Of a stretch of 12,926 nt of DNA, positions 2,681-10,177 are shown one piece after another. The first letter of the stretch is position 1, and each line of letters begins with the position of its first letter. Both the position numbers and the translations under genes were made by a program. Source of the stretch: Treponema sp. (GTDB taxonomy: Bacteria; Spirochaetota; Spirochaetia; Treponematales; Treponemataceae); assembly GCA_014804085.1 (NCBI GenBank), contig JAAVAM010000023.1:1-12926 (forward strand). The letters run 5' to 3'. The notes under the pieces were generated by a model. The model was not told the DNA's origin. It searched no databases and worked only from the letters and a program-made list of their open reading frames with translations.

Positions 2681-5227
2681 TTACGCCTTGTTATAGAAAA
2701 TCCTTTCATATTCTTCACGGCGAATTTCCGTGTCAAAGCCGCCCACTTCTGTTTCGTTTGCGTGGCGGTCTATGCCCGTGTATGAAAGCGAGGCATCTTC
2801 GTAACGCTTGAATTTGAAAATGGCATCATTCATAAGCGGCGCGTTGAAAACGCCAAGCGAACAGAGCAATTCAAAGTCTTTTACGTCAAGCCCCGTAACT
2901 TTCTTAAAAAGCGAAGGCTCAAGCTGCGTGATGATGTCGCGCAAAGAACGCTCGCGGTAATCGGTCAAGTACATAAAAATCGGCACTCGCGTCGCAAATT
3001 TTATCAGCTTTTCCTGTATCATCTTCCGCTTGCTTTTGTATTCTTTTTCTTCCTCGGAAAGAAGCCTTTTCTCCTGTTGCGTAAGTTTTTCCTCGCCCTC
3101 TTTTTTCGCCTTTTTGACGTGCTCACTTTTGTTTATGATTGTCTGAATGTCCTGATTGAGCGCGCGGAATCCTTCAATGCGCATCAGCGCGTCGAGCGCG
3201 GCTTTATTGTTCAGAAGCCGGGAAAGCGTCTCATTGTCCACATTTACCAGCAGGGCGGATTCCCAGCGGCGCGCGAGCAAGGTCGCGCTCGTCCCCGCCA
3301 TCGCGATGTCCAGAACGTCCTGCGCGTTGATTTGCTTCATCGTACTGCCGTCATAGGCAAGGACAGGCAGGAACGAAATGAACTCGGCGACCTTCTTTTC
3401 GGGATTGCTTTCCTCAACGTCCAGGCGGCAGGAATAGTCCGAAATCTGGCGCAAGGCGCGGTCAAGCGCAAAATCGAAGATGTAGCAGTTTTCCTTGAGG
3501 ATGATTTTTTCGCCGTCGTCTCCCGCTATTTCCCACGGGTTTTGGACGCGGAACGCCGCCTGGAAATACGTTTCGGGCGAACTCAAGTTGCGGAGCATGA
3601 AAATTCCGCTCCACGGCCTCACCGTAACGCCCGTCGTGAGTTTTCCGCATGAAAGCGTGATCGTTTTTGTCTCAAGCGGATTTTCCATGGCATCCTGCAC
3701 GGGACGCAAAGCCTCAAGCCCGATCCCCGCGCCGCTTCCCGCACAAACGACGATTTTGTAGCTGCGATAAAAAGCGTTCTGCTTTTGCTCCAAAAGATTT
3801 TTCATCGCAAAGCAGCTTGAGACATTCGGCAAAAACCAAAGCGTGTGCGAAAGAATGTTCAAAAGCCGCGCGTCGGAATAGGGCATCGGCGGACGCTTGT
3901 CTTGCCCCAATTTCATATCGTCAATGCTGCTCGGCAAATGCGAGCCGCGAATCAAGTCGAGCCATTTCTGCACCTCGTCCTCGTGGACGAAGTGCGCCTG
4001 CGAGCCTTTGCCCTCCGCCGAGAAAAACACGTTCAAATCGAATTCGTTGAACCCGCCTTGCATGGCGACCTGCCTGATGCTGTCCGGGATTTTGTAGGTG
4101 AACATGACCATTTTCGGAAGCGAGCGATACGGATTTTCTTCGCCGCGAAAGTTTTCTTTTGCGCGCTGCTCGTCGGAATACGTCCAGTTGAAAATCTGCT
4201 CTTCGATGAACTCGCCGCTGTTGAGCGCGCGAAAGGGCGTTCCCGAAAGGAACAGATAATAATCCGTCGTAATCGGAAGGAAGCTTTCGTTGCAGGCGTT
4301 CCCCGCTTCGTTTTTCTGATATGCTTCCACGTCAAAGTCAAAGTCATCCTCGTCGGGATTTTCAAAGAGCCTTTTTGCGTTCTCGCGCCACGCACCAAAA
4401 TGATATTCGTCAAAAATCACCAAATCCCAATTCGTCGTATGGATGAATTCGTTTTTCGCCTTGATGCCGCCGCTTTCGTTCCGTCCGAGCAAGTCCTGGA
4501 ACGAGCCAAAGACGACAATCGGCTTTTTCTTGTCGCACTTTGAAAAGCTTTCGTCAATGTTGATGTCGTCGTTTTGTGCGTCCTTGTTGGAGACGAACTG
4601 CCAGCCTTCAAAATCCACGTGCGAAAGCAAGTCCTCGCGCCATGCCGATTCCACGGCGGGCTTGAACGTAAGGACGAGGACGCGGCGAAACCCCATCTTC
4701 TGCGCGAGCTTGTACGAGGCGAACGTTTTTCCAAAGCGCATTTTCGCGTTCCACAAGAATTTCGGCGGCCTTGAAGCCGCTTCTTTTTTTGCCCGCACAA
4801 AATAGTCGCTTGTCTTTCGCACGGCGTTTTCCTGTTCGGGGCGCATCTTGAAATCCTGCATGCGCTTTTCTTCCGATATTATTCCGTCCCGCACTTCCAA
4901 AATCGCCGCGCGCACGTCCTGCACAGAACAGGCGAACCATTCGTTCCTGTCATTTCCTTCGTTGAGCCGCCTAAAGCCATTTTTGCGGAGAACGCGGTGA
5001 ATCGCCTTGTCGGTGAAGATTGAGCCGTCCGCCCGCATCGCGCTTTCCTTGAGCAAAACCTTTGCCGAAACGCCCACCGTGTGCGTCTGCTCGTTTATGC
5101 GATCGGTCACATCGCGCCTAGTGTAGCCCACTTTGACAAAGCCTTCGTGCGACGGAACGCCGGGCAACATATAGGCGTAAATCGTGGGATTGGATTTTGG
5201 ATGCTGGATAAAAAATTCTTCTTGCAT
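2681..5227 (-). CDS. T5orf172/GIY-YIG nuclease - DEAD/DEAH helicase fusion (putative restriction subunit)
   Basis: An 848-residue protein. Residues about 15-100 fit the T5orf172 branch of GIY-YIG nucleases: a 'TIYAYM' strand, KVGYT at 32-36, Arg43, His77 and the closing NEWF at 95-98 with the probable catalytic Glu96. A superfamily 2 helicase core follows: RPEQ at 129-132, a Walker A variant AKMRFGKT (161-168), DEYH (273-276) and SGTPF (328-332). A motif VI-like 'YFQAAFRVQNPW' lies near residue 555. About residues 690-740 are charged and helical, possibly coiled coil. Helicase-nuclease proteins of this kind usually translocate along DNA and cut it in restriction systems. The two methylase genes upstream on the same strand support that role, although a toxin-antitoxin pair now separates them. 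The start has GGAG (5238-5241) 10 nt upstream. The specific biochemical activity is inferred. Confidence 0.85.
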   Translation of the reverse strand: MQEEFFIQHPKSNPTIYAYMLPGVPSHEGFVKVGYTRRDVTDRINEQTHTVGVSAKVLLKESAMRADGSIFTDKAIHRVLRKNGFRRLNEGNDRNEWFACSVQDVRAAILEVRDGIISEEKRMQDFKMRPEQENAVRKTSDYFVRAKKEAASRPPKFLWNAKMRFGKTFASYKLAQKMGFRRVLVLTFKPAVESAWREDLLSHVDFEGWQFVSNKDAQNDDINIDESFSKCDKKKPIVVFGSFQDLLGRNESGGIKAKNEFIHTTNWDLVIFDEYHFGAWRENAKRLFENPDEDDFDFDVEAYQKNEAGNACNESFLPITTDYYLFLSGTPFRALNSGEFIEEQIFNWTYSDEQRAKENFRGEENPYRSLPKMVMFTYKIPDSIRQVAMQGGFNEFDLNVFFSAEGKGSQAHFVHEDEVQKWLDLIRGSHLPSSIDDMKLGQDKRPPMPYSDARLLNILSHTLWFLPNVSSCFAMKNLLEQKQNAFYRSYKIVVCAGSGAGIGLEALRPVQDAMENPLETKTITLSCGKLTTGVTVRPWSGIFMLRNLSSPETYFQAAFRVQNPWEIAGDDGEKIILKENCYIFDFALDRALRQISDYSCRLDVEESNPEKKVAEFISFLPVLAYDGSTMKQINAQDVLDIAMAGTSATLLARRWESALLVNVDNETLSRLLNNKAALDALMRIEGFRALNQDIQTIINKSEHVKKAKKEGEEKLTQQEKRLLSEEEKEYKSKRKMIQEKLIKFATRVPIFMYLTDYRERSLRDIITQLEPSLFKKVTGLDVKDFELLCSLGVFNAPLMNDAIFKFKRYEDASLSYTGIDRHANETEVGGFDTEIRREEYERIFYNKA

Positions 5228-5267
5228 AGTGGCAAAACTCCTTTTTTATGGATTTTTTCACAATGTA

Positions 5268-5296
5268 TTTACAAAAGACACAATTTGGCATACAAT
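5268..5296 (+). promoter_or_regulatory. Promoter of the toxin-antitoxin pair
   Basis: TTTACA (5268-5273), a 17-bp spacer and TACAAT (5291-5296) make a near-consensus sigma70-type promoter 35 bp upstream of the antitoxin start. It lies in the divergent region shared with the helicase gene. Confidence 0.7.
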
Positions 5297-5306
5297 ATAC
5301 GCCAAA
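5284..5306. promoter_or_regulatory. Probable autoregulatory operator of the toxin-antitoxin pair
   Basis: A 23-bp imperfect palindrome with outer arms TTTGGC (5284-5289) and GCCAAA (5301-5306); 9 of 11 position pairs are complementary. It covers the -10 box, where RelB/DinJ-type antitoxins usually bind to repress their own operon. Confidence 0.6.
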
Positions 5307-5330
5307 AGCACAAGCAAACAGGAGAATGAC

Positions 5331-5648
5331 ATGGCAACAGTAAGCACAAACATTCGCATTGACGAAAACGTAAAGGCGGAAGCCTCAAAACTTTTTGAAG
5401 GACTGGGACTCACCTTGAGCGACGCGGTGAATGTTTTTTTGCGGCAGTCGATTTTGCATCGCGGCGTTCCATTCAAAATCGAGTATCCCGAAGAAAAGCC
5501 CAATCGGGCAACAATCCGCGCGATGAAAGAGGGCGACAGGTTTCTTGCGAAATACGCGAAGAATCCCGAAAAATACAAGAAAAATCCCAAGAAATACGGT
5601 TTGTACAACAACGTGGAAGAACTTTTTGAGGATATGAAAAAATGGTAG
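5331..5648 (+). CDS. RelB/DinJ-family antitoxin
   Basis: A 105-residue protein. Residues 1-50 form the ribbon-helix-helix DNA-binding domain of RelB/DinJ antitoxins: 'VSTNIRIDENVKAEASKLFEGLGLTLSDAVNVFLRQ', followed by the typical 'GVPF' (about 53-56). The lysine- and asparagine-rich C-terminal half (about 57-105) presumably wraps and neutralises the toxin. The ATG at 5331 has GGAG (5321-5324) 6 nt upstream. Its stop overlaps the toxin start by 7 nt, so the two are translationally coupled. The operon runs opposite to the surrounding methylase and helicase genes and looks like a self-contained insertion. Confidence 0.92.
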   Translation: MATVSTNIRIDENVKAEASKLFEGLGLTLSDAVNVFLRQSILHRGVPFKIEYPEEKPNRATIRAMKEGDRFLAKYAKNPEKYKKNPKKYGLYNNVEELFEDMKKW

Positions 5649-5941
5649 CGTTTGAAAACGCAAAATATACAGTCCGCGGAACCTCTAAATTCAAAAAGGA
5701 AATCAGACTCGCAAAGAAAAGAGGGTTGGATATAAAAGAACTTTATCCCATTGTAAAACTTCTCGCGAACGGCGAAACTCTCCCCGAAAAATACGAAGAC
5801 CATGCTTTGGAAGGAAAGTGGAAAGGTCACCGCGAGTGTCATGTCCGCCCCGACTGGCTTTTGATTTACCAAATTAAAGAAGATATGCTCGTTTTGGAAT
5901 TGACACGCACGGGAACTCACGCCGACTTGTTCGGGAAGTGA
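5642..5941 (+). CDS. YafQ-family mRNA interferase toxin
   Basis: A 99-residue member of the RelE/YafQ fold. It retains the YafQ-type active-site pattern: His in 'YEDHALEGKWKGHRECHVRPDWLLIY' (about residues 52-77, including the H-x3-DW block) and His near the end in 'TGTHADLFG' (about 90-98). Family members cut mRNA in the ribosome A site and are held inactive by the DinJ-type antitoxin encoded just upstream. No truncation or loss of active-site residues is visible, so it is probably functional. The gene ends 23 nt before the stop codon of the oppositely oriented methylase gene, with no terminator visible between them. Confidence 0.92.
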   Translation: MVAFENAKYTVRGTSKFKKEIRLAKKRGLDIKELYPIVKLLANGETLPEKYEDHALEGKWKGHRECHVRPDWLLIYQIKEDMLVLELTRTGTHADLFGK

Positions 5942-5964
5942 TGTTTGATTGCGCATAAGCCAGC

Positions 5965-7479
5965 CTACTCCATCGGGCGAATCATCGACTCGATAAAGTC
6001 GATTTCTTCTTGCGATAGATTGTATTTGGCGTACAGTTCTTCGTCCGTCCACGGTTTGGAGAAGTCCTGCATGGGGACGAATTGATAAACGCTTTTTGTA
6101 CCGTTTTGAGTGTTTTTCTTTAACATTACAAAGAATCTAAAGAATTTAGTTTTAATATAGGAAATTACGTTTTCAGCGGTTAATCTATCTTCAAATTTCC
6201 CTATTTGCAAATATGTTTCAGTACAACAAGAATGTGGCTCGCCAATAAAAGGTTTGTTAATAATTTGATGCGGAAATCCTTCTCCAGCTCCATATCCAAA
6301 ACTTATAAATATCTTAAATTTATCAATAGATTCTATATTTTGAGGAATAACATAATCCGTACTTAAATATCCATGGGTCTTATTGGCATAGATTTTTATT
6401 CCATTTGATGAATTGTTTTTTGAGAAATCACTAAATGTCGAAGAAAAACCGAATGGACGGCGAACACTTACTAGTTCCATAAAAGACGGCTCATTAAAAA
6501 TTTTTACTTTATGAAAAATACTTATAGCCTGATTGTATCGTATGAAAACCTCATTTCCAGGCTCTAATAAGTTGCGTTGCATTGATGAAACGGTAGCCTC
6601 TTTGTTATGTGTATTAACAGAACAAACTCCAGCATTATCTCTATCCCATAGAAAATAGCAAACTCCTCCCTTGATTTCTACCCCTGGAAAACAGTCATCT
6701 GCGTTCGGAAAATCGTGTATAATACGTAAATGCGTATCATGCAACATCTCATTTCTAAATTCATCAAGTCCTTTTCCGCCAGTAAACCAACGAGAAGGCG
6801 TAATCATAATAAGATATCGTGGCATGAGTTTTTTTGCTTGAATGACAAATTTATCGTAAATAGGAATTGCGCTTGAGCCTGTACCGCCCCCGTCCCTTAA
6901 TTGATACGGCGGATTACTGATAATAACATCGAATTTCATATTAAATAACTTCTCCAAATCGTCAGTGTGGATAAATTCGTAAGCATGCGTTTCCAGTTCA
7001 TCGCCGCGCTCGTATTCCGATTGGTTTGCGCCGCAGTGTATGCATTTTCCGTTTTTCCACGTGTGCGAAGTTTTTTTGTACCTGATGTTTCCGTCGGCAC
7101 TTTCAAACTTGCTCACCGAAAACGCGCCGTCCGCGCTTTTGCTGCAATACACGCCACGGCGGGCGAGCAGGCCTGTAAGTTCGGTTATGGCAATGCCGAA
7201 AAGCTGCTTGTGAAAAATGTGGTCTATGCGTTCCTGCAAGTCAGGAAGTTGCGGCTCCAAGCCTTTTATCAGCCGTTTTGCGATTTCCCGCAAGAAAACG
7301 CCCGTCTTGCATGCCGGGTCTAGAAAAGTAGCATCGGGATTTTTGAAAAGTTCTTGCGGCAGCATATCCAGCATTTGATTGACGATTTCGGGCGGCGTAA
7401 ACACTTCGTCATTGGACAAATTCGCAAGGCAGGAGAGGACATCGGGGTTATATACTTTTCCGAACAGCGTGTTATCCAT
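5965..7479 (-). CDS. Eco57I-type N6-adenine DNA methylase
   Basis: A 504-residue protein. The methylase motifs are in the usual order: motif X 'SNDEVFTPPEIV' (22-33), motif I DPACKTGVF (54-62, with Lys in place of the usual first Gly) and motif IV NPPY (189-192), which marks adenine N6 methylation. A CIHCG segment preceded by HTWKNGK (about 140-156) may bind zinc. The region after about 230 should hold target recognition. The protein closes with 'PWTDEELYAKYNLSQEEIDFIESMI', a tail type shared by such methylases. The start overlaps the preceding gene by 8 nt (ATGGATAA) and is preceded by AGGAGG, so the two are coupled. Composition changes sharply inside the gene (about 6100-6960 is AT-rich). 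Target sequence is unknown. Confidence 0.9.
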   Translation of the reverse strand: MDNTLFGKVYNPDVLSCLANLSNDEVFTPPEIVNQMLDMLPQELFKNPDATFLDPACKTGVFLREIAKRLIKGLEPQLPDLQERIDHIFHKQLFGIAITELTGLLARRGVYCSKSADGAFSVSKFESADGNIRYKKTSHTWKNGKCIHCGANQSEYERGDELETHAYEFIHTDDLEKLFNMKFDVIISNPPYQLRDGGGTGSSAIPIYDKFVIQAKKLMPRYLIMITPSRWFTGGKGLDEFRNEMLHDTHLRIIHDFPNADDCFPGVEIKGGVCYFLWDRDNAGVCSVNTHNKEATVSSMQRNLLEPGNEVFIRYNQAISIFHKVKIFNEPSFMELVSVRRPFGFSSTFSDFSKNNSSNGIKIYANKTHGYLSTDYVIPQNIESIDKFKIFISFGYGAGEGFPHQIINKPFIGEPHSCCTETYLQIGKFEDRLTAENVISYIKTKFFRFFVMLKKNTQNGTKSVYQFVPMQDFSKPWTDEELYAKYNLSQEEIDFIESMIRPME

Positions 7480-8197
7480 TTTCTTGCACCCTCCTGTAAT
7501 GCGTTATGTATTTTTTCAGGAATATGCCTTCGTCCACGGTGTCGTCGAAAAGACTTCGTTGTTTTGTCTTTGGGGTGCCGTCGCTCTGCGCCAAAAGTTC
7601 GTCAAACGTATAATCGCTCCGTTGCAGCTGGCTTGCGGTCACAAACGCCCATTCGGAAAAGATGATTGGCTCGTCGGTGTCGTTCGCGTTTTCATCAACG
7701 CATTTCAGTGTGAGCGCATTGCCGCAAACGATATTGCGCGAAAGAATAAACTGCACGGCTTCGCGCGTTTGTTCGTTGCAATCCTTTTTACAAACTGCTT
7801 TATATTCCTTATCCCAAAGCGTGAACATTCTCTCCCGGCAAGCAATCACGTTGTCAAGCAAAATATCCACGCCATATATCGACGACGCGGCAAGCACGGC
7901 ATTCTTTTCATAATCGAGATGGCTGCGCCCATACTTGCGTTTCACTACGGCAAGTTTGCGTGAGAGTATTTCGGCGAGAAAATTACCATCGCCACAGGCA
8001 GGCTCTAAAAAGCGACTGTCAATACGTTCTGTTTCATCTTTTACCAAGTCGCACATCGCTTTCACCTCGCGCTCTGCGGTAAAAACTTCACCGTGCTGCC
8101 GTACCCGTTCTTTTGATTTTGTCTGGGCTGAGAATGTTTTTTCTGTCTGCTTTTTATTTTGTTCCATCGGCATACGTCGCGAGGCTCGCAAACGCAT
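7472..8197 (-). CDS. SAM-binding methylase-like protein lacking NPPY
   Basis: Up to 241 residues. It carries a motif X-like 'RVRQHGEVFTAEREV' and motif I EPACGDGNF (residues 65-73 from the 8197 start), then 'SIYGVDIL' and 'RNIVCGNALTL' in the places of methylase motifs II and III. Where motif IV NPPY/DPPY is expected there is only 'IIFSEWAFV'. It may therefore bind AdoMet but not methylate alone, acting as a partner of the coupled Eco57I-type methylase. The start is undecided: ATGs at 8197, 8173 and 8167 all lack a Shine-Dalgarno site. A TATAAT at 8202-8207 puts transcription initiation at about 8195-8197, so translation is either leaderless from 8197 or begins at 8167 (MEQNKK). It is the first gene of the methylase operon and is divergent from the XRE regulator. 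Confidence 0.8.
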   Translation of the reverse strand: MRLRASRRMPMEQNKKQTEKTFSAQTKSKERVRQHGEVFTAEREVKAMCDLVKDETERIDSRFLEPACGDGNFLAEILSRKLAVVKRKYGRSHLDYEKNAVLAASSIYGVDILLDNVIACRERMFTLWDKEYKAVCKKDCNEQTREAVQFILSRNIVCGNALTLKCVDENANDTDEPIIFSEWAFVTASQLQRSDYTFDELLAQSDGTPKTKQRSLFDDTVDEGIFLKKYITHYRRVQENG

Positions 8198-8201
8198 TTC
8201 T

Positions 8202-8230
8202 ATTATAATTCATTTGCATAATAAAGTCTA
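8202..8230 (-). promoter_or_regulatory. Methylase operon promoter
   Basis: On the minus strand there is TAGACT (8225-8230, 4 of 6 matches to TTGACA), a 17-bp spacer and a perfect TATAAT (8202-8207). The -10 ends only 4 nt before the first possible ATG. Confidence 0.65.
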
Positions 8231-8266
8231 TGCATTTGCAGATTATTTTACAATGTAAATGCATAG
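8211..8266. promoter_or_regulatory. Operator array of the divergent regulator
   Basis: CATTTGCA occurs at 8211-8218 and again at 8233-8240, 22 bp apart, and in inverted, one-base-variant form (TGTAAATG) at 8254-8261. The larger inverted repeat CTATGCATTT (8228-8237) / AAATGCATAG (8257-8266) is perfect over 10 bp, and TTTACA-A-TGTAAA (8247-8259) is a perfect palindrome. One arm overlaps the methylase -35 and the other abuts the XRE -10, so a bound dimer could switch both promoters. Binding by the adjacent XRE protein is inferred. Confidence 0.6.
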
Positions 8267-8272
8267 TATAAT
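8267..8272 (+). promoter_or_regulatory. -10 box of the XRE regulator (leaderless start)
   Basis: A perfect TATAAT ends 5 nt before the ATG at 8278, so the likely +1 is the A of the start codon. There is no good -35 at 16-18 bp upstream, as expected for an activator-dependent promoter. Confidence 0.6.
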
Positions 8273-8277
8273 GCGGT

Positions 8278-8577
8278 ATGGATATCTTAGGCAAGATCCG
8301 AAAATTGCAACGCGACCGCCAGTGGACAGACTACAAGCTAGCACAGGAAGCGGACATTCCGTTAGCTACGCTGGTCTCCCTTTTTCAGCGCAACAATCCT
8401 CCAAAAATCGAAACGCTGCAAAGTCTTTGCAAGGCGTTCGGATTGACGCTTGCCCAATTCTTTTTGGAAGATGAAAAAATAGAAGTGTTGAGCGATACGG
8501 AAAAAGAAATGCTCAAAGTGTTCCGCAGGCTTTCTCCCAAACAAAAGCGCGCGCTCGTCACCGTGTTTCAAGATTGA
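8278..8577 (+). CDS. XRE-family regulator, probable controller of the methylase operon
   Basis: A 99-residue protein. Residues about 4-62 form a helix-turn-helix of the XRE type ('TDYKLAQEADIPLATLVSLFQRNNPPKIETLQSLCKAFGLTLAQFF'). A short helical tail follows ('SDTEKEMLKVFRRLSPKQKRALVTVFQD'). It is divergent from the methylase operon, with an operator-like array between the two. Its size and position match controller (C) proteins of restriction-modification systems, many of which are also leaderless. There is no Shine-Dalgarno sequence before the ATG, which supports leaderless translation. The array is not the classic GACT...AGTC C-box, so the C-protein role is inferred. The next gene downstream, the HipA-like kinase, is convergent, so this is not an obvious HipB. 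Confidence 0.87.
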   Translation: MDILGKIRKLQRDRQWTDYKLAQEADIPLATLVSLFQRNNPPKIETLQSLCKAFGLTLAQFFLEDEKIEVLSDTEKEMLKVFRRLSPKQKRALVTVFQD

Positions 8578-8825: not shown

Positions 8826-9959
8826 CTAGCGCAGCAACAACGCGGCATTGCTTCTTATCTGGCTTTCAATGGCAGAAAGCCGCTGCCTCGGCACGTTATA
8901 GCGCGGATGTCGCGTAAAACGAAAACGCAGGATGCCGCGCAGCCTGTCCTTATGCCATTGCGTCATACACGCTTTCGCGGCCTCCACAAAATGGTCATAT
9001 ACGCACGGCAGCAGGCTTCTGTCATAGTCGGCAAGTGATTCGCGCGAATCAAAGTCACCGGGACCGGCAAGACTGTACAGCGAATTTCCGTGGTCAAACA
9101 GCGGCGCAGGCGCAATGATCGTATTTGTCCTGCTGTCAAGCAAGAAGCCGAAATTCCCGTAGTGCCGGTCCGTGTTTTTTATGACGGCATCAAGCACCAG
9201 CATGTCGGCAAGCGACTTTTCAAATGCACCGCCGAGCGACCGATAAAAAGCGGCGACCGCATCAAAACCGCCTTCCGGCACAATTTTCCCGGCAGGAATA
9301 TACGAAACTTCCTTTGTCGTGAAAAGAGCGCACGTAGAGCAAATCTCGCCCTTCCATTTTGATAGCCCGTAGGAAACCGATTGTATGCCGAGTGTCTCCG
9401 CAACCTGATGCGCGTAGAATTCCGAATACGGCTCGAATCCCGTATTTGACGCGCCGCTTGTGCCTCCCTTATAAAGCACAATGCTGCCGTTTATCCGCCG
9501 CCAGCACTTGGGGAGCATTCCGTTCGTCGTGAATTCCGGGCTTGAGGCAAAACTTGAGCGGACAGAACTGCCGTAACCGGTAAAGGCGATGCGTCCCAAC
9601 ACCGCGCTGAACCGGTTGTCATATAAGTTGTAGTTTTCAAACGTGCCGTCGAATCCTTCTTCTACGACCCAATAGCAGTCATTCAGCGACAACCCCTTTG
9701 AGACAGAGATGATTCCGAGCGGCCGGTTCGCGCTCAGACCGCACTTTGCAAGAAAAGAATCGACAAAAGCCCTATTCTTAGGGATGCTCCTGCGGCGTAT
9801 CCATGACTCAAGCCCTTTCTCGGAAAGCTCCAAATCCTTGGGCAGGAGCGTCTTTTTATCTTCATCAGCCCACACGATTTTATATCCCGGAGTGCTGCTG
9901 TTAGCATCCGCAGAAAATCTGAGCAAATCCGTATCAAAATGCTTGAGCGTATAAACCAT
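8826..9959 (-). CDS. Stand-alone HipA-like Ser/Thr kinase
   Basis: A 377-residue protein. The HipA kinase fold is indicated by 'TTNGMLPKCWRR' and 'IVLYKGG' (about residues 145-167; ATP-binding Lys), the catalytic loop KNTDRHYGNFGF (Asp at 264) and APLFDHGNSL (about 285), which supplies the metal-binding Asp. The N-terminal third ('WIRRRSIPKNRAFVDSFL', 'LGIISVSKGLSLNDCYWV') is not the classic HipA N domain but resembles a separate group of HipA-like proteins found without HipB. Targets are unknown; classic HipA phosphorylates a tRNA synthetase. The start at ATG 9957-9959 has a weak GAG/AAAGAAG upstream; an ATG at 9989 has no site. No HTH antitoxin is adjacent. The catalytic residues look intact. 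Confidence 0.83.
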   Translation of the reverse strand: MVYTLKHFDTDLLRFSADANSSTPGYKIVWADEDKKTLLPKDLELSEKGLESWIRRRSIPKNRAFVDSFLAKCGLSANRPLGIISVSKGLSLNDCYWVVEEGFDGTFENYNLYDNRFSAVLGRIAFTGYGSSVRSSFASSPEFTTNGMLPKCWRRINGSIVLYKGGTSGASNTGFEPYSEFYAHQVAETLGIQSVSYGLSKWKGEICSTCALFTTKEVSYIPAGKIVPEGGFDAVAAFYRSLGGAFEKSLADMLVLDAVIKNTDRHYGNFGFLLDSRTNTIIAPAPLFDHGNSLYSLAGPGDFDSRESLADYDRSLLPCVYDHFVEAAKACMTQWHKDRLRGILRFRFTRHPRYNVPRQRLSAIESQIRSNAALLLR

Positions 9960-10052
9960 CTTCTTTACTCGAAAGATACTATAGCACATATTCTAAAAGA
10001 AAAAAAGTGATGACAGCCGCGCCATGTATGCATCAAAACGGCGGCATCTTTC

Positions 10053-10105: not shown

Positions 10106-10177
10106 GGTCGATTAACTCAGTGGTAGAGTGCTACCTTCACACGGTAGAAGTCACTGGTTCAAGTCCAGTATCGACCA
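10106..10177 (+). tRNA. tRNA-Val (anticodon CAC)
   Basis: All arms fold by eye. The acceptor GGTCGAT/ATCGACC pairs over 7 bp, the D stem is ACTC/GAGT and the T arm is ACTGG-TTCAAGT-CCAGT. The anticodon stem is CTACC/GGTAG with loop TTCACAC, giving anticodon CAC (reads GUG). The discriminator is A and CCA is not encoded. It has its own promoter and terminator. It sits at the boundary between the accessory region and the transhydrogenase operon, a usual kind of integration landmark, although I found no duplicated tRNA 3' end in the window. Confidence 0.95.

Follow-up and report, generated by a model that had tools for sequence, protein, structure and literature searches.

The window, a 12,926-nucleotide stretch of DNA from Treponema sp. 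(NCBI GenBank assembly GCA_014804085.1, contig JAAVAM010000023.1; contig C30 within an assembly of 75 contigs and 2.7 Mb), carries on its minus strand three genes, M1, M2 and R, which by homology form a restriction-modification (R-M) locus of the DrdVI type, a known but little-studied kind with a split methylase. Family and overall function taken together, we consider it very likely that the locus specifies a DrdVI-type, ATP-dependent restriction-modification system. A controller gene and a toxin-antitoxin (TA) pair accompany the three genes.

Relationship to DrdVI and other restriction-modification systems

A plasmid search with M1 found pDrdVI of Deinococcus wulumuqiensis NEB 479, which carries homologues of M1 (2175-2813), M2 (2822-4441) and R (4434-6989) in identical order; the homology extends over most of each protein, and the system thus belongs to a known kind. 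The identities between the window and DrdVI amount to 55% for R (residues 3-838), 51% for M2 and 41% for M1. The window possesses adjoining genes homologous to M1.DrdVI and M2.DrdVI, of which the first lacks the NPPY motif and the second contains it, and an R protein homologous to that of DrdVI that combines a GIY-YIG nuclease with a translocase. The initial annotation held that the layout corresponds to no known type, a view that can no longer be maintained. The methyltransferase M1-2.DrdVI has been cloned, methylates GCAGCC to yield N6-methyladenine (m6A), and has been typed as IIG (PMC6430315). A further report, in a passage on a GIY-YIG relative, characterises DrdVI as a translocase fused to a restriction endonuclease (PMC4996451). 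An excerpt of another source places the M1-M2 enzyme MaeIV of Methanococcus aeolicus (motif GCACY) in a split-methylase family similar to DrdVI (PMC10113651); by this description alone, MaeIV resembles the window's enzyme as a split methylase, but it is archaeal.

Unlike the window's locus, DrdVI has overlapping M2 and R genes without cargo between them, and no XRE gene was found within 800 bp upstream of its M1. The locus is a known kind of system that also has a controller and TA cargo, both without counterpart in the studied prototype. The type ISP enzymes LlaGI and LlaBIII are single polypeptides with an Mrr-type nuclease and without an M1; the window's locus differs from them by its GIY-YIG nuclease and its three genes, and this type was rejected since nuclease, helicase, methylase and recognition functions do not reside in one chain. 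Type III was discarded because that type has only Mod and Res proteins with one Mod methylase, whereas the window carries two distinct methylase-like genes together with a GIY-YIG nuclease. Type I (HsdRMS) was likewise dismissed, as no HsdS-like match was present among the ten window proteins scanned and the variable part lies inside M2. The single-chain GIY-YIG type IIG enzymes (PADLOC model PDLC03626) are alike in having one part that aligns to R and another that aligns to M2, but theirs are joined in one protein by gene fusion.

A frame check confirmed the open frames that had been called for R, M2, M1 and XRE (Table 1), and Pfam recovered the expected domains T5orf172 and ResIII in R, Eco57I in M2 and HTH_26 in XRE. 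The initial description as a three-component system is correct with respect to M1, M2 and R; its count was incomplete, since the RelB/YafQ pair inside the locus had been overlooked. The M1 and M2 frames overlap by 8 bp. Among the matches listed, the closest named relatives of M1 belong to Treponema and Treponemataceae metagenome-assembled genomes.

Table 1. Genes and sequence elements of the DrdVI-type locus (positions in the window)
Feature	Position	Strand	Description
R	2681-5227	-	848 amino acids; GIY-YIG (T5orf172) nuclease fused to superfamily 2 (SF2)/ResIII translocase; Pfam T5orf172 1.3e-10, ResIII 1.4e-6
RelB/DinJ-family antitoxin, cargo	5331-5648	+	Pfam RelB 8.3e-15; TIGR02384 over cut-off
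YafQ-family toxin, cargo	5642-5941	+	Pfam YafQ_toxin 1e-35; TIGR00053 over cut-off
M2	5965-7479	-	N6-adenine methylase (NPPY) bearing the target-recognition region; Lys58 in motif I; Pfam Eco57I 2.8e-36
M1	7472-8197	-	putative S-adenosylmethionine (SAM)-binding half-methylase without NPPY; MmeI_Mtase match under Pfam cut-off, no other
XRE-family divergent regulator	8278-8577	+	99 amino acids; HTH_26 1.1e-6
Promoter-like site for RelB/YafQ, TTTACA-17-TACAAT	5268-5296	+	promoter scan, 10/12 matches; consensus match only
Palindrome TTTGGC...GCCAAA over RelB -10 box	5284-5306	both	10-pair stem; doubles as terminator-like site on R strand
M1 promoter-like site, TAGACT-17-TATAAT	8202-8230	-	promoter scan, 10/12; operator copy inside spacer
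Operator array, GCATTTGC/GCAAATGC-type sites	8185-8266	both	holds 13-nt inverted repeat 8228-8240 / 8254-8266

Conservation of gene order and occurrence

The neighbourhood survey comprised 129 fetched loci (L numbers below) and the window; 13 duplicates were dropped, as were 8 loci (9 rows) that have R without M2, and an R was counted at thresholds of 250 bits and 45% identity to that of the window. The surveyed loci are related to each other, so that the counts are not independent. M2 lies upstream of R in 89 distinct loci at 45% identity or more, and the order M1-M2-R is conserved across the surveyed loci. The absence of a conserved neighbourhood in other genomes had been named beforehand as an outcome that would speak against the proposed system; on this point, the proposal stands.

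When rows with at least 57% identity over at least 390 residues of R are counted, the window's type is present in 16 of the 392 genomes of its phylum and 18 of the 274 genomes of its family (own genome included). The corresponding figures are 4 of 391 genomes for the class to which the L010 genome (titled Clostridia) belongs, and 22 of 395 for the phylum of L038, a genome titled Bacteroidaceae; both include the central genome, which was picked for carrying the type. At least 7,999 and at least 8,000 candidate relatives were scored in two lists from public genomes and metagenomes, each candidate with an E value of 0.001 or below; with at least thousands of relatives in public sequence, the DrdVI kind has nevertheless been little studied, and its name occurs in only three papers of the literature searched (PMC6430315, PMC4996451, PMC10113651).

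The whole M1-M2-R set is also found in records filed as phage or viral (L002, PV036449.1; L003, MT835565.1; several IMG/VR loci among L114-L128), and the system therefore probably travels on phages too. Broken or rearranged copies exist as well: M2 is split into two pieces in L038 (10662-12251), and L057 (3697-4896) has a frame that matches M1 and then M2, with an R tail after it.

Division of methylase motifs between M1 and M2

The proposal of a partner without NPPY next to an NPPY methylase is substantiated by the motif count over the surveyed loci, as NPPY occurs in all 86 M2 proteins versus none of the 85 M1 proteins. Motif I is intact in M1; in M2, a lysine replaces its first glycine in 86 of 86 proteins. 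The acidic residue of motif II is gone from M2, whose residue 97 is A, G or S in every case (86/86), whereas M1 keeps it within the sequence YG[VI][DE] (85/85). With an intact motif I in M1 and NPPY in M2, the SAM-binding and catalytic motifs appear to be divided between two chains, an arrangement that we count as new. The structure model of M1 has a mean predicted local distance difference test score (pLDDT) of 82.2, and its residues from about 27 to 183 match N-terminal parts of MmeI and CamA.

M2 may instead be a complete methyltransferase that binds SAM itself via its lysine-containing motif I, with M1 serving only to support the structure or to bind DNA, in the way of the second Mod subunit in type III enzymes; we give this explanation a probability somewhat below one half. 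The distribution of the motif II acid speaks against it, and so do distant relatives with 27-40% identity to R, for which fifteen R matches were fetched for examination. Among the 16 rearranged loci, three have M1 fused directly to the NPPY half of M2, with the N-terminal half of M2 absent from that chain and located on R. The weakness of the P0320 model (pLDDT 70.0, predicted template modelling score 0.55, 17 sequences) also counts against this explanation. In 11 of the 16 distant loci (class B), a single gene with R-like and M2-like parts lies beside a separate M1.

We also considered that M1 and the N-terminal half of M2 could each serve as the first half of an enzyme whose other half, for catalysis and recognition, is the same, so that the enzyme would swap half-domains between tagging and cutting. 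The tagging state would then consist of M1 and the NPPY half, loaded with SAM; in the restriction state, the lysine-bearing first half of M2, which is on R in some rearranged relatives, would read the same site without methylating it, and the cargo slot described below would hold a back-up killer for failure of the switch. We regard this scheme as very improbable. The division of motifs, together with rearrangements that bring the NPPY half to M1 and the other half to R, offers a testable handle on the choice between marking and cutting.

Comparison with L007, the nearest relative, reveals which part of M2 varies. M1 (residues 24-241) and R are 97-98% identical to their L007 counterparts (R 98%). 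In 40-residue blocks, M2 is 95-98% identical over residues 1-200, 45-72% over 201-360, 65% over 361-440, and then 82-100% to the C-terminal end. This identity pattern is that expected of a swapped target-recognition (specificity) region, which would occupy residues of about 200-440.

Several natural variants of M1 and M2 were encountered. P0320 is a natural M1-M2 fusion of 743 amino acids found on 14 contigs. Fissions and fusions shift the N-terminal half of M2 onto R in L135, L136, L140, L141 and L142, three of which have the fusion of M1 with the NPPY half. Between motif I and NPPY, M2 contains an invariant Cys-x2-Cys pair (residues 146-149; 86/86), perhaps a zinc knuckle.

The nuclease-translocase R

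The residues expected for an active nuclease and helicase are retained in R. In an alignment of 42 rows, Tyr17, Arg43, Asp73, Glu96 and Trp97 of the nuclease are invariant, as are the MRFGKT loop with Lys167, Asp273-Glu274, SGTP and Arg560/Gln562 of the helicase; His77 is kept in 38 of the 42 rows, and the initial annotation of these residues is thereby borne out. R is about 100 amino acids longer (937-1002) in most Clostridia-titled loci among L008-L037 than in most loci titled Treponema or Spirochaet- (842-878), among which L055 is an exception with 988 amino acids.

A cargo slot between M2 and R

The genes for the RelB/DinJ-family antitoxin and the YafQ-family toxin overlap by 7 bp (5642-5648) and are inserted antisense to the R-M genes between M2 and R, and here keep the methylase genes apart from the nuclease gene. 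The YafQ gene ends 23 bp from the M2 stop codon, and the insertion occupies the identical place in L007 and L024. From the end of M2 through the TA genes, the window and L024 are 86% identical over 920 columns with one gap. Because the insertion is present in another assembly (L007) and in L024, it is no assembly accident. The palindrome over the -10 box of RelB is probably a site of RelB autorepression, a function suggested by its position.

The M2-R junction is a recurrent cargo slot in related loci, and we count this observation as new. Among 84 M1-M2 junctions, 78 overlap or measure at most 60 bp, three fall between 60 and 150 bp, and three reach at least 150 bp and are scored as filled; the corresponding numbers for 88 M2-R junctions are 51, 2 and 35 (Fisher p 2.4e-9, a guide value only as the loci are related). 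Toxin, TA, Fic, RES or Abi (abortive infection) families over the Pfam cut-off are present in 11 of the 35 filled slots. The cargo includes YafQ/RelB in four loci (window, L007, L024, L048), Gp49 with HTH (L043), PemK with an AAA ATPase gene (L067), Fic (L070, L071), RES (L025), Abi_2 (L018) and HEPN_Apea (L020), and, below the cut-off, PIN (L015) and HEPN_AbiU2 (L036). Other slots hold Schlafen AlbA_2 (L088), YhcG/DUF1016 (L071, L077, L097), RhuM (L087), KilA-N (L079), Bro-N (L103), DUF4160/DUF2442 (L111), DUF2971 (L034) and YjcQ (L044). The three filled M1-M2 junctions (L071, L087, L097) contain RhuM, PDDEXK_3 and 23S_rRNA_IVP genes. No convincing frame was seen in the filled slots of L027 and L080. 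In 11 of the 35 (L011, L012, L021, L023, L026, L050, L081, L107, L115, L120, L122), the open frames had no Pfam family over the cut-off, and the slot may hence repay a search for new toxin or abortive-infection genes.

No description of a cargo slot in DrdVI-type systems was found in the literature searched, most subscription journals lying outside it. Toxin-like accessory genes embedded in R-M operons are known, with PrrC in the type Ic locus EcoprrI as the classic case and HEPN, RhuM and Fic genes as further ones (PMC3710099, PMC12707154, both in extracts). In those extracts, PrrC differs by its place in a type I locus, and the published examples belong mostly to other R-M kinds. PrrC itself had no match among the cargo scanned. 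Back-up effectors are known for bacteriophage exclusion (BREX) systems, according to an extract of PMC12839542.

The divergent XRE regulator and its probable operator

An operator-like array between M1 and XRE had been proposed, and it is real by count: the 260 bases that surround the annotated start of M1 contain four sites within one mismatch of GCATTTGC/GCAAATGC, and none of 200 dinucleotide shuffles reached that number. One site sits inside the 17-bp spacer of the M1 promoter-like site, for which relatives show a comparable arrangement by eye; the inverted repeat has its right arm directly next to a TATAAT that shortly precedes the XRE start. Operator sites at these two positions favour repression of both promoters, that of M1 and that of XRE.

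Of 91 loci, 39 have a divergent XRE gene no more than 800 bp upstream of M1. Ten loci have an XRE at least 47% identical to that of the window, and eight of these have at least two operator sites (one mismatch allowed); the remaining two, L012 and L016, have a related palindrome in a similar place by eye. At least two sites were found in none of the 49 loci without an XRE and in none of the 29 with a more distant one. The XRE protein is therefore probably a dedicated repressor with a co-varying palindromic operator inside the M1 promoter, a pairing that we count as new. A small helix-turn-helix gene beside the R-M genes and repeated sites at the R-M promoter are also the features of C-protein-controlled R-M systems, and the idea of an R-M-like system with a divergent controller is in this way supported at the level of sequence by the kept order M1-M2-R, the frequency of XRE and its co-variation with the operator. 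In a type I locus mentioned in an extract of PMC12707154, the whole operon appears to be repressed by a C-family gene located upstream.

The annotated M1 start at 8197 is probably wrong, because the -10 box of the best promoter-like site ends at 8202; ATG codons at 8173 or 8167 are the more probable starts. The second and third entries of the M1 homologue list are versions of 233 and 231 residues.

Proposed mode of action

We suggest that M1 and M2 together act as an m6A methyltransferase that would methylate one short asymmetric site, by analogy with DrdVI and MaeIV. M2 would carry the catalytic NPPY motif and the variable target-recognition region; whether M1 supplies the SAM-binding half-domain is about evenly balanced in our estimate. 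R would be brought to unmodified sites through M2, translocate on the DNA by its SF2 motor, and cut with its GIY-YIG domain, as its motifs and the description of DrdVI suggest. XRE would repress M1-M2 and itself via operators in both promoters and thereby keep the operon low, and the RelB/YafQ pair probably stabilises the locus or serves as a second defence layer. R might be transcribed by read-through from M2 or from a weak promoter of its own.

Several observations weigh against this interpretation. On the R strand, the stretch from the TA genes to R gave no promoter-like site in the promoter scan, and four terminator-like sites (5661-5648, 5491-5479, 5386-5373, 5306-5284) are located on this strand inside or just past the TA genes; together, they speak against easy read-through to R. 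It should be noted that the total of terminator-like sites is near the shuffle mean (16 versus 13.9), and the four may be due to chance. In 46 M1 loci for which 500 bp or more of upstream sequence were available, pDrdVI among them, no XRE was found, so that the gene is an optional module. In L007, the nearest relative, the XRE is a different one of weak similarity, and copies of the operator are absent. Furthermore, the sibling cluster DnmA-YeeB-YeeC of B. subtilis (methylase, helicase, T5orf172) is reported, in an extract of PMC9973331, not to restrict phage under the conditions tested, so that conserved genes need not mean active restriction.

The locus could be a relic in which M1 and M2 still methylate for regulation, R restricts no more, and the TA pair mainly holds the island in place. 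The extract on the B. subtilis cluster describes it as such a relic, the DrdVI-like genes of B. trehalosi are fragmented and inactive according to a passage in PMC4996451, and in the window the TA genes part R from M2. However, R is full length, with all tested motor residues and nearly all nuclease residues intact, and it is 98% identical in L007 while the recognition part of M2 has changed, which suggests that R is still under selection. We thus view a relic as unlikely and prefer an active DrdVI-type system.

A further possibility concerns the TA pair, which might be wired to the operon as a second-line effector: transcription from the M1 promoter would run antisense through the TA genes and silence them, and shutdown of the R-M operon would release YafQ, much as PrrC in the EcoprrI locus is activated on inhibition of the enzyme (PMC12707154, PMC3710099, in extracts). 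The 23 bp that separate M2 from YafQ are free of terminator-like sites in the scan, and cargo is antisense in 7 of the 35 filled slots (window, L007, L015, L018, L024, L043, L048), which, with the toxin-related families in 11 of them, would fit such wiring. In contrast, the cargo lies in sense orientation in 26 of the 35 and in large part belongs to no known toxin family; terminator-like sites occur further along the R strand, and TA pairs insert in many places. Such wiring is, in our view, highly doubtful, and stabilisation or a second defence layer remains the preferred role of the pair.

Neighbouring genes

An ImmA/IrrE peptidase gene with an XRE gene lies beside R (1302-2396) and forms a separate regulatory or TA-like pair. 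Upstream of that XRE gene, at 2552-2640, three overlapping copies of a 43-nt direct repeat occur at 23-nt spacing, with inverted repeats. At 315-1169, a DUF4469 protein with an HU-HIG match under the cut-off is encoded. On the other side of the locus, the region 8826-9989 encodes a 387-amino-acid protein with a weak HipA_C match under the cut-off and matches to PADLOC PDC-M03A; a tRNA-Val gene (10106-10177) is located near it.

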